Positions 752-45,869 of a stretch of 64,000 nt of DNA are shown here, piece by piece. The notes beneath the pieces are model-generated. The model had not been told where the DNA came from. It worked only from the letters and a program-made list of their open reading frames with translations, and made no database searches. Location: contig NZ_QVNU01000002.1 in assembly GCF_003545715.1 (NCBI RefSeq), positions 1-64,000 of the forward strand, given 5' to 3'. How positions within the stretch are numbered: the stretch's first letter is position 1; each line of letters opens with the position of its first letter. This DNA is from Taibaiella koreensis (lineage in GTDB: Bacteria; Bacteroidota; Bacteroidia; Chitinophagales; Chitinophagaceae). Position numbers and translations under genes: made by a program.

Positions 752-1030
752 TTAGCCAATACAAGGCTGCAGCTGGGAGCAATTGGGTGGCCAGGTAGGG
801 CAAGTGTTCGTATTGCAGTTGAGCACGGTATCACAATTGTGCTGTGTCTTAAGGCAATCGATCACCGTGCAGGCAATACCACAGGTCGCTTCGCCGGTAC
901 AGCTATAATACTGACATATGGTTACGGTGCCGCCTTTGGCGCCACCGGCAAGGGCTTCACCCCCCGCCTGTAGCGGCGCTATGTTCTTTTTTTTCAATGA
1001 AAGCTTCGCGTTCAGGTGTTTCTTTTTCAT
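752..1030 (-). CDS. Orphan Cys-rich RiPP-like precursor (class I lanthipeptide-type leader)
   Basis: A 92-residue peptide. Residues 1-22 are a basic leader (MKKK, then KLSLKKKNIAPL), followed by a Gly-rich stretch with GG pairs at 23-24, 29-30 and 33-34. The remaining 58 residues hold ten cysteines (39, 44, 50, 54, 59, 66, 72, 77, 84, 90) and many Thr and Ser. This layout matches the Bacteroidota class I lanthipeptide-like or 'natural product precursor' families. The ATG at 1030 is chosen because it starts the KKK leader; the frame is open further upstream only through a TTG. No dehydratase, cyclase or peptidase-transporter gene is near, so the modification is unknown. A second peptide of the same plan lies at 44317-44574. 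It could also be a disulfide-rich secreted peptide. Confidence 0.7.
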   Translation of the reverse strand: MKKKHLNAKLSLKKKNIAPLQAGGEALAGGAKGGTVTICQYYSCTGEATCGIACTVIDCLKTQHNCDTVLNCNTNTCPTWPPNCSQLQPCIG

Positions 1031-1150
1031 TGCGCTTGATGTTTGGTAAGCTACAAAACTCCGGTAAGGCGCTGCAGCTTCCCTGCAGTACAACAACTTT
1101 TAGGGCGGATTTAGCAATACTTATAAACTAATGAAATATTTCGCACCAAA

Positions 1151-43687: not shown

Positions 43688-44239
43688 ATGAATAACAGCA
43701 TCCATATTCCGAAACCCTGTCATGAGAACTGGGACAATATGTTACGGGAAGAGCAGGGCAGGCATTGCCTGAGCTGCTGCAAGACCGTAGTCGATTTTTC
43801 CACCTGGGACAACGAAAGCATCCTGGCCTACCTGCAGAACAAAAATGGCGAAAGGGTTTGCGGACGCTTTAATGCGGAACAAGTAGCAAGCGTGCCGGCG
43901 CCTTCACAACAGGAATTGCTGCAGGGTGTATTCCGCTCGGCAATGCCGCTGCTGCGCAAAATAGCTGCCGTGATCGTGCTTTACTTTGGCCTGGGCAGTG
44001 TGCAGGAAACGCATGCTCAGAAGGTAGTAGGTAAGATTAAAGTAACCCAACAACCACAACAGCAGCTCCTGGGCGAACCGGCAGTAATGCAGCCGGCGGA
44101 TACCGCTAAACCTCAAGCTGTGCCACAGGTTGATACCTTTAAGCCGCAAATCATGGGTATGATAAGGATGCCAGATCCTGCGCCGAAGAATCAGCCTAAG
44201 AAGAAAGTGTCTACAACGGCGAAGAAGCCTACCCGGTAA
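43688..44239 (+). CDS. Membrane protein with N-terminal Cys-motif domain
   Basis: A 183-residue protein. Residues 1-65 are a small Cys domain (HIPKPCHENWDNM, RHCLSCCKTVVDFSTWD, ERVCGRF), with Cys at 11, 27, 30, 31 and 58; this N-terminal module recurs, from memory, in many Bacteroidota membrane proteins, and the CxxC plus outlying Cys could bind a metal. A hydrophobic segment (LRKIAAVIVLYFGLGSV) is near residues 92-108, then AQ like a signal-peptide end. The tail is Gln/Pro/Lys-rich (KNQPKKKVSTTAKKPTR). The Cys domain would face the cytoplasm. It is 77 bases before the RiPP-like gene in the same direction. No known function. Confidence 0.65.
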   Translation: MNNSIHIPKPCHENWDNMLREEQGRHCLSCCKTVVDFSTWDNESILAYLQNKNGERVCGRFNAEQVASVPAPSQQELLQGVFRSAMPLLRKIAAVIVLYFGLGSVQETHAQKVVGKIKVTQQPQQQLLGEPAVMQPADTAKPQAVPQVDTFKPQIMGMIRMPDPAPKNQPKKKVSTTAKKPTR

Positions 44240-44316
44240 CCGGTAAACAAATATGCCCGGGATAGGGTATTGATCAGCCTGGAGAAAAACTTCAGCTTTG
44301 CTTGAAACACCTTTTT

Positions 44317-44574
44317 ATGAAGAAAAAACAAGTAAGCCTGAAGAAACTAACGCTAAACAAACAGGTGATCAGCAAACTGGACCGTAAGCACATCCTGGGT
44401 GGCGGTACGTTTTTCCGCTGCAGCGACGACAACCCTATCCCTCCGATAGATGTCACTCTAAACGCAGGTTGCCAGTTTGATACCGTCGGATGCCCTGGCC
44501 CTTCGGATGGGGGAACCTGCGATTGGGTCACCAACTGCATTTGCGATTCGATCGTTACCTGCCAGGTTTGCTAA
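44317..44574 (+). CDS. Second orphan Cys-rich RiPP-like precursor
   Basis: An 85-residue peptide with the same plan as the one at 752-1030. The leader runs MKKKQVSLKKLTLNKQVISK, then LDRKHILGGG at 21-30, and the tail of 55 residues has eight cysteines (35, 52, 59, 68, 74, 76, 82, 85) and ends in Cys. The leader is a good match to Bacteroidota class I lanthipeptide-type precursors (KKLxLNKxxIxxL, then GG). The ATG at 44317 begins the KKK leader; a TTG at 44302 adds five residues. CAGCTTTG, one base off a -7 box, lies 16 bases upstream. A terminator follows at 44605. No modification genes are seen. Confidence 0.72.
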   Translation: MKKKQVSLKKLTLNKQVISKLDRKHILGGGTFFRCSDDNPIPPIDVTLNAGCQFDTVGCPGPSDGGTCDWVTNCICDSIVTCQVC

Positions 44575-44604
44575 TGCTCACTACGAAAACAAGCTTTACT
44601 AAAG

Positions 44605-44628
44605 GAGCCCGGCAACGGGCTCTTTTTT
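44605..44628 (+). terminator. Terminator after the RiPP-like gene
   Basis: GAGCCCG at 44605-44611, loop GCAA, CGGGCTC at 44616-44622, then TTTTTT. A compact intrinsic terminator, 30 bases after the stop at 44574, between convergent genes. Confidence 0.9.
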
Positions 44629-44651: not shown

Positions 44652-45869
44652 TCAATGCAGTGTCCAGCCCAGCAACAGCCAGCCCAGCACGATGAGCGGC
44701 GCCGGTATACGGGTGAATTGCAGCAGGCAGAAGGTGATGATGACGACCACTAAGCTCATGAAGTCGAAGCCCGTCCTGTTGATCTCCATAAAAAGGATGA
44801 TGCCCGAAGCCCATATCACACCTACGATCACGGCATTGATGCCTTCCAGCGAACGGTAGATCACCACATGCTGCTTGAGGTTCTGGTATACAGGAAAAAG
44901 AAAAAGGAGCAATAAGGTGCTCGGCAGAAAGATGGCGATGATGCTGACCAGGCAGCCTGCGGCCTGCCAGACCGGTCCAAACTTGCTCATAGCCAAACCA
45001 CCCACGAAGGCGCAAACGGAGAACACCGGCCCCGGCATGGCCTGTACCAGGCCGAAGCCGGTCATGAGTTCGCCCGGCGTCATATAAGGCGTAAAGCCAC
45101 GCTTGGCAGGCAGGCTCACAAACTGTACCAGCATCATAGGGATCAGCGCCTGCCCTCCACCAAATACGATGCTGCCGAAACGGTAAAAATTCTCGAACAG
45201 GTTTACGATACGGCGGTGCTCCCATTGCTGGTGACGGGCGATCTCGCTGACCACACCAGCGGCTATAAACACCAATGCAAATACCAGCAGGTTGATCCAC
45301 TTGACCGGCTTGGGTTTTTCTACCTTGTTTACAATGCGTTTATTGCTGAAATTGGTAAGAATGCCGGCAATCAAGAGCAATACGGGGAAAAGCCAAGGCG
45401 ATCGTATGAGCACCGTGAGTATGCCTCCACCGATCATAATCGCCAGCGTCATTTTATTGGATACGCTGCGCTGCATCATGTTGATGGCGGCATAACAGAC
45501 AAAGCCTACTGACATAGGCCGTACATACAGGAAAAGATTTTGCTGTATGGACTTTGTATCGAGAAAATAGACGAGGAAAGAAAAAGCCGACATCAGCAAG
45601 GTTGCCGGCAATATCCATATGAGCAGCGTAACGATGGCTAGCGGAATACCGCCACGCTTCCACCCGATCAGCATCACGGTCTGCGTAGACGAGGGGCCGG
45701 GCAGCATCTGGCAAAAGGAATTGTATTCGATCAGTTCTTCCTCGGTTACATCTTTCCGCTTACGCACAAAGGTCTTTACCATCATACCAATATGCCCCTG
45801 CGGTCCGCCGAAGGCCGTAAGCGAATAGGCGAAGACTGCCTTGAGGAAAGGGATATGGCGCAGGAACAT
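44652..45869 (-). CDS. chrA: Chromate-type anion transporter
   Basis: A 405-residue membrane protein with both halves of the chromate transporter (CHR) family. The first half has LTAFGGPQGHIGMMVKTFV and FCQMLPGPSSTQTVMLIG; the second repeats it as FGGGQALIPMMLVQFV and GLVQAMPGPVFSVCAFVGG. Long-chain CHR proteins export chromate and related anions in some species, but many are untested. No chromate regulator (chrB) is adjacent. The stop is 78 bases from the RiPP-like gene and the start is 29 bases after the hydrolase stop, so the two leftward genes may be cotranscribed. Confidence 0.88.
   Translation of the reverse strand: MFLRHIPFLKAVFAYSLTAFGGPQGHIGMMVKTFVRKRKDVTEEELIEYNSFCQMLPGPSSTQTVMLIGWKRGGIPLAIVTLLIWILPATLLMSAFSFLVYFLDTKSIQQNLFLYVRPMSVGFVCYAAINMMQRSVSNKMTLAIMIGGGILTVLIRSPWLFPVLLLIAGILTNFSNKRIVNKVEKPKPVKWINLLVFALVFIAAGVVSEIARHQQWEHRRIVNLFENFYRFGSIVFGGGQALIPMMLVQFVSLPAKRGFTPYMTPGELMTGFGLVQAMPGPVFSVCAFVGGLAMSKFGPVWQAAGCLVSIIAIFLPSTLLLLFLFPVYQNLKQHVVIYRSLEGINAVIVGVIWASGIILFMEINRTGFDFMSLVVVIITFCLLQFTRIPAPLIVLGWLLLGWTLH

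Follow-up and report, generated by a model that had tools for sequence, protein, structure and literature searches.

A short gene at positions 44317–44574 (forward strand) of the window, as we call the whole 64,000-nucleotide stretch of Taibaiella koreensis DNA analysed here, raises the question of what its cysteine-rich product is and which enzymes would mature it. The gene encodes an 85-residue peptide (MKKKQVSLKKLTLNKQVISKLDRKHILGGGTFFRC...VTCQVC) whose eight Cys residues all lie C-terminal to a GGG. The Lys-rich leader (residues 1–29, 44317–44403) ends in GG, after which it would be cleaved, followed by the third G. Residues 1–23 match the “class I lanthipeptide” profile NF038153 at 24.6 bits (curated cut-off, 22), and the translation contains LTLNKQVISKL (44347–44379, forward strand), an instance of the LxLxKx5L motif that excerpts of PMC7268733 describe for Bacteroidetes class I LanAs. 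A longer frame could start at TTG 44302; the profile match begins at the ATG. Profile score, motif and double-Gly end together place the leader in type L1a, and the core (44404–44571, forward strand; from translation and spacing analysis) agrees with this type in having eight Cys, nine Ser/Thr, enough of which are N-terminal to Cys, and two Ser/Thr-x4-Cys pairs. These pairs, Thr47–Cys52 and Ser63–Cys68, are the likeliest rings as judged from the residue spacing, and both spacings recur in the T. helva orthologue. A Pfam scan of the peptide up to E 10 gave zero matches, the leader is not of the Nif11 type, and no structural family in Pfam or NCBIfam was matched that would make the Cys tail a conserved structural protein, an objection foreseen in the preliminary description. 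The RiPP-like precursor proposed there is thus confirmed, and what the gene encodes is very probably the not yet modified form of a secreted peptide that bears rings.

The gene is flanked upstream by a small protein (43688–44239; no Pfam match over cut-off) and downstream by a chromate transporter (44652–45869). As first described, it has its own terminator, an intrinsic hairpin followed by U’s at 44601–44626 (forward strand; −18.3 kcal/mol, z −5.3, 0 of 200 shuffles as good). A simple consensus scan for terminators did not list this hairpin, in our opinion because the stem takes up the U’s. Upstream, a weak promoter −7-like box, CAGCTTTG (44293–44300, forward strand), was read from the sequence 17–24 nt before the ATG; its first base departs from TAnnTTTG, which we take to be the −7 consensus. 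A pattern search also returned the dyad CTGGAGAAAAACTTCAG (44279–44295, forward strand, at −38), which has the pattern of the promoter dyad of other precursors but is out of register. We rejected it as the shared promoter dyad: TTTG follows after 1 nt, compared with 14 nt at 16 of the 17 sites that have TTTG, and the dyad is probably a different element. The gene carries neither this promoter dyad nor the pseudoknot described below in register.

A second precursor of the family lies in the window at 752–1030 (reverse strand; 92 residues by translation, NF038153 match of 24.1 bits). The two peptides had been credited with a single plan; they do share the leader and the GGG layout, whereas the number of Cys differs, with ten at 752–1030 against eight at 44317–44574. 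The claim that unrelated tails follow a common leader was borne out, each core being unlike the other and unlike most of the set described below. Two similar stretches (ctgaacggacc...cttcaccataaac) at window positions 308 and 510, 202 bases apart, adjoin the 752–1030 precursor.

When the window’s own genome (5.94 Mb in 24 contigs, 99.65% complete) was searched with NF038153, 129 matches were found at E up to 10; 90 of them reach at least 22 bits alone and three more do so with in-frame neighbours. The 44317–44574 leader ranks 57th of the 129. None of 14 control genomes had a match over the cut-off, and five had a weaker one at E up to 10. After the reading frames were inspected, 127 of the 129 were retained as precursor-like peptides, distributed over 12 contigs and 86 loci; number 126, presumably a protease-like protein given its HExxH, and number 106, which stops after 26 residues, were left out. 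Numbers 86 (one core Cys), 120 (two) and 115 (odd start) are atypical members of the retained set. GG falls at residues 18–42 in 125 of the 127 precursors, the strict leader motif is present in 107, and Ser/Thr are at least as numerous as Cys in 123. Fifty-eight precursors are solitary, with no other within 5 kb. The leader similarity noted between the two window peptides holds over the 127 paralogues, where leaders have a median pairwise identity of 0.44, as against 0.21 after shuffling, and cores one of 0.26, as against 0.24; it is weaker in the T. helva orthologue of 44317–44574, whose leader scores 15.8 bits on NF038153 and thus falls below the cut-off.

Thioether rings link Ser/Thr to Cys, with the Ser/Thr first in most known lanthipeptides, so a one-sided spacing at −5 would be expected from selection for rings. 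In the 127 precursors, Ser/Thr occupied the position −5 from Cys at a frequency of 0.37 versus 0.229 expected (z 9.6, 0 of 1000 shuffles), with no excess at +5 (0.202 versus 0.228 expected); a smaller excess was seen at +2 and a shortage at +1. The −5 enrichment recurred in 81 precursors of T. helva and T. chishuiensis (0.384 versus 0.223, 0 of 1000 shuffles), a set that counts one L166 gene twice through two in-frame starts, and in 54 cores from relatives, none more than 50% identical to the present set (0.398 versus 0.218, 0 of 1000).

The class I enzymes LanB (two genes) and LanC (four genes) are both encoded in the genome, as is one full C39 exporter (PCAT). One LanB is full-length with both Pfam halves and forms an operon with PCAT, a C39-peptidase ABC exporter, and HlyD; a precursor lies about 1 kb away. 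This operon is on the same contig as 44317–44574 at a distance of 262 kb, so the clustering with LanB/LanC that is usual, though not defining, for such precursors is not seen here. The other LanB (L124:8703-11471, 922 residues) is on a different contig, next to RteC and a LytTR response regulator, with the nearest listed precursor about 20 kb away. Each of the four LanC-like proteins (402–444 residues, a single Pfam domain at E 0.01) has the zinc motifs WCYG and CHG and a precursor within about 2 kb. In addition to the one full PCAT, a second C39 match falls in a 164-residue frame. Since no LanC adjoins the LanB–PCAT operon, enzyme pairing is not fixed by position, and both LanB stay candidates.

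By analogy with the class II prochlorosins, maturation of dispersed class I precursors in trans would be the best reading of this arrangement. We consider it likely, and with good confidence, that 44317–44574 is a free-standing precursor of the class I lanthipeptide type, belonging to a set of about 127 spread through the genome, with a leader read by a far-off LanB and maturation in trans. The conserved leader would be bound by the distant LanB, most likely the full-length enzyme of the LanB–PCAT–HlyD operon on the same contig, which would dehydrate core Ser/Thr with glutamyl-tRNA as the reagent. One of the four unlinked LanC would then close the thioether rings, most commonly Ser/Thr-x4-Cys, and PCAT would cleave after GG and export the product, whatever activity it may have. 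That one distant enzyme set might serve many cores had been suggested at the outset, together with a comparison of leader hits and LanB/C positions; this comparison gave about 127 dispersed precursors sharing a leader and few enzymes, with 10 of 127 within 10 kb of a LanB, LanC or PCAT gene, from which we infer action in trans.

Co-occurrence across the family is consistent with such a partnership. Among 147 family genomes, 10 have leaders (E up to 0.001), 20 have LanB and 23 have LanC; both enzymes occur in 9 of the 10 leader genomes (hypergeometric 2e-8 for LanB, a value that ignores relatedness). In the tenth, G140 (2.5 Mb, 130 contigs), neither LanB nor LanC was found. Large sets are confined to the genus, where three of four genomes hold at least 88, at least 62 and 46 leaders at E up to 0.001; the eight leader genomes outside it have one to seven each. 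In the sister species G101, of the same genus, searches for the leader (E up to 0.001), LanB and LanC all came back empty. In G036 and G071, leaders lie within about 20 kb of a LanB on a single contig.

These observations also bear on the improbable alternative that the tails are secreted without modification, rich in disulphides, and have nothing more in common than an export leader of the GG type. Cys-rich cores behind a double-glycine site would suit PCAT export without modification, and the same genome has further peptides with leaders of the GG type. However, the Cys number is even in just 62 of the 127 precursors, so disulphides are not favoured, and the Ser/Thr-to-Cys spacing is one-sided at −5. 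Moreover, the leaders accompany LanB and LanC in nine of ten genomes, with the sister species devoid of all three, and curation assigns this leader family to the class I lanthipeptides.

Comparison with relatives shows how the gene itself has evolved. At the same site T. helva has an orthologue of 83 residues with eight Cys, in which AG replaces GG and which has a hairpin of its own. Amino acid identity is 0.54 in the leader and 0.53 in the core, against 0.97 for the neighbouring transporter, and omega is 0.49 for the leader and 0.22 for the core; purifying selection has therefore acted on the gene between the two species in which it occurs. In T. chishuiensis the gene is absent from this site, which thus turns over. 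A peptide pattern that misses even the T. helva orthologue had zero matches in 18 more distant loci (L129–L146). Twelve other orthologue pairs, taken at 62% identity or more, a choice that favours low omega, had a median core omega of 0.06 (nine computable, none above 1) by a crude pairwise method in which several rows had a saturated or non-computable dS; the Cys number was equal in 10 of the 12. Diversifying selection on the cores is unsupported, omega being below 1 in every computable orthologue pair. Core divergence is between paralogues, not fast within orthologues.

Somewhat less probable still than unmodified export is that most lone precursors are decaying copies and that only the few adjoining LanB or LanC function. 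The 58 solitary precursors, the 10 that lie near an enzyme and the broken copies (number 106, and one T. helva copy that stops after 22 residues) would fit such decay. Yet 127 of the 128 precursor-like matches are open, omega is below 1 for 44317–44574 as for the nine computable pre-selected pairs, and terminator-like sites follow 70 of the 127 precursors compared with 30 of 381 random positions, a lenient control because most of those positions are coding. Use of the leader by some other kind of modifying enzyme, be it radical SAM, ATP-grasp or another, is least probable of all, for although the genome has other peptide families, such as a microviridin precursor, and the genome-wide enzyme search covered LanB, LanC and C39, the GG radical-SAM RiPP leader profile TIGR04149 is absent among the matches of either window peptide up to E 10 (HMMER filters drop most weak matches), and the leaders occur with LanB/LanC in nine of ten genomes and within about 20 kb of LanB in G036 and G071.

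Several points weigh against maturation in trans of 44317–44574 as a class I precursor: its leader ranks midway among the matches and, in the comparison with T. helva, is no better conserved than its core; the T. helva orthologue falls below the cut-off with AG; T. chishuiensis lacks the gene at this site; and G140 has leaders with neither LanB nor LanC found.

Subsets of the other precursors carry upstream elements, one of them a pseudoknot RNA. Ahead of the start of 16 of the 127 precursors we found the arrangement GCYGAACA–P2–AnGGC(G)–insert–AAGACA–P2', a covarying H-type pseudoknot located just before the start codon (loci within L042–L124, e.g. L072:4112-4166 and L084:3939-3987). P1 was paired in all cells of these 16 sequences and P2 in 86%, with two-sided changes in all seven P2 pairs; the sequences were picked by eye, partly for pairing, and the pairing counts lean that way. 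Covariation reached 0.459 versus 0.263 in shuffled alignments (0 of 500) and fell to 0.10–0.21 when the pairing was slid, while the number of pair types in this set was not above shuffles (203 of 500 as high). In 48 matches (38 distinct) aligned to a model of P2 alone, P1, absent from the model, was paired in all cells and whole-element covariation was 0.501 versus 0.267 shuffled (0 of 500); the number of double-change pairs in this set was reached by 41 of 500 shuffles. In Rfam, 13 loci had no match at the gathering threshold, and nothing covered the element in searches of one element to E 5 and of eight further loci to E 1.

At E up to 1 the model matches in each of the three genus genomes that carry leaders (21, 16 and 13 places) and nowhere in G101. 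A short peptide of the GG-leader type follows 49 of these 50 places (21 of 21 here, 16 of 16 in T. chishuiensis and 12 of 13 in T. helva), a count in which 16 of the 21 here are so by construction, one T. helva peptide is truncated and two places were judged by coordinates alone; the exception, G001 C32 (18.4 bits), has no such peptide. In the ten best matches of each genome, the start codon lies 7–20 nt past the end of the model. Nine of the 49 peptides, five of them here, have other, non-lanthipeptide leaders ending in GG as judged by reading, and two of these nine, tried by profile, reached no NCBIfam cut-off. Beyond the genus, matches at E up to 0.05 turned up in 7 of the 147 family genomes sampled; two of these (in G119 and G108) precede GG-leader-like peptides and the other five look like chance. 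The pseudoknot was also seen ahead of other GG-ending leaders, many with an ESL..KF-like start, at L194, L195, L238, L239, L240, L242, L245 and L246 and, in other genera, at L187 and L188. At L157 in T. helva it is kept before a peptide that stops after 22 residues.

The second element is the promoter dyad CTGNA-N7-TNCAG, present within 120 nt of the start in 31 of the 127 precursors versus 0.5 expected. TTTG follows 17 of the 31 and lies exactly 14 nt on in 16, the exception being 44317–44574; we set aside this out-of-register copy and C16:208280, which is inside a pseudoknot, and kept 29. The 752–1030 precursor has the form CTGCA-N7-TGCAG at 1072–1088 (reverse strand, by pattern search), with TTTG 14 nt on. 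Genome-wide, ACTGCA-N3-8-TGCAGT occurs at 16 sites and its reversed control at none. Thirteen of these sites precede listed precursors; the remaining three lie before a microviridin precursor, before a 486-residue protein, and, with a six-base spacer, where neither side has a precursor. The microviridin precursor under the dyad (L197:4293-4505; 48 bits, cut-off 26) stands alone. A genus-wide role of the dyad is unsupported, as 3 of 81 precursors of relatives match it, two in register (both in T. helva) and the third inside a pseudoknot.

Pinensins and Pedobacter lusitanus PedA15 are made from clustered genes. They are likewise Bacteroidota class I lanthipeptides, and the excerpts of PMC7268733 and PMC12328550 yielded no large dispersed set for them. 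Published work, consulted in parts of PMC7268733, PMC10352776, PMC10783134, PMC9576775, PMC12328550 and PMC9993889, already covers class I lanthipeptides of Bacteroidota, their leader motif and their production in E. coli. The present precursors resemble the Bacteroidetes class I precursors of NF038153 and of the excerpted text of Walker et al. 2020 (PMC7268733) in leader motif, GG end, C39 exporter and LanB/LanC class. That survey, as its excerpts describe it, was limited to seven genes around a LanC-domain protein, whereas here about 127 precursors were found, mostly far from enzymes. With the prochlorosins and synechococsins, as portrayed in portions of PMC10783134, they share many scattered precursors, similar leaders, varied cores and few enzymes. 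The same portions give up to 83 precursors in one genome and assign those systems to class II, with LanM and Nif11-type leaders, in contrast to the class I LanB and LanC and the L1a leader of Taibaiella. In one open full-text library, which leaves most subscription papers outside, we found no dispersed class I set of such size and no RNA before such genes. The peptide at 44317–44574 thus belongs to a known class, and its gene arrangement is a new variant.

We lean towards viewing Taibaiella as a class I counterpart of the prochlorosin producers, with about 127 precursors (more than the 83 in the consulted portions of PMC10783134) that a single exporter, four LanC and one or two LanB would serve. 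Subsets of these precursors would stand under dispersed upstream elements. One such element would be a pseudoknot RNA of the H type, so far undescribed, which lies directly ahead of the start codon in GG-leader-type peptides belonging to several unrelated kinds and could be a riboswitch or an RNA that regulates exported peptides. If this is true, the four LanC and one or two LanB would accept more than 100 natural cores. The set would then offer a ready-made way to test which substrates class I enzymes tolerate and what ring rules they follow, at a scale that, as far as we found, has so far been open to class II enzymes only. Mining confined to the surroundings of the enzymes would miss most of these precursors. 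The −5 Ser/Thr rule would lead to concrete ring predictions, and the pseudoknot RNA would provide a handle on the timing of peptide production.
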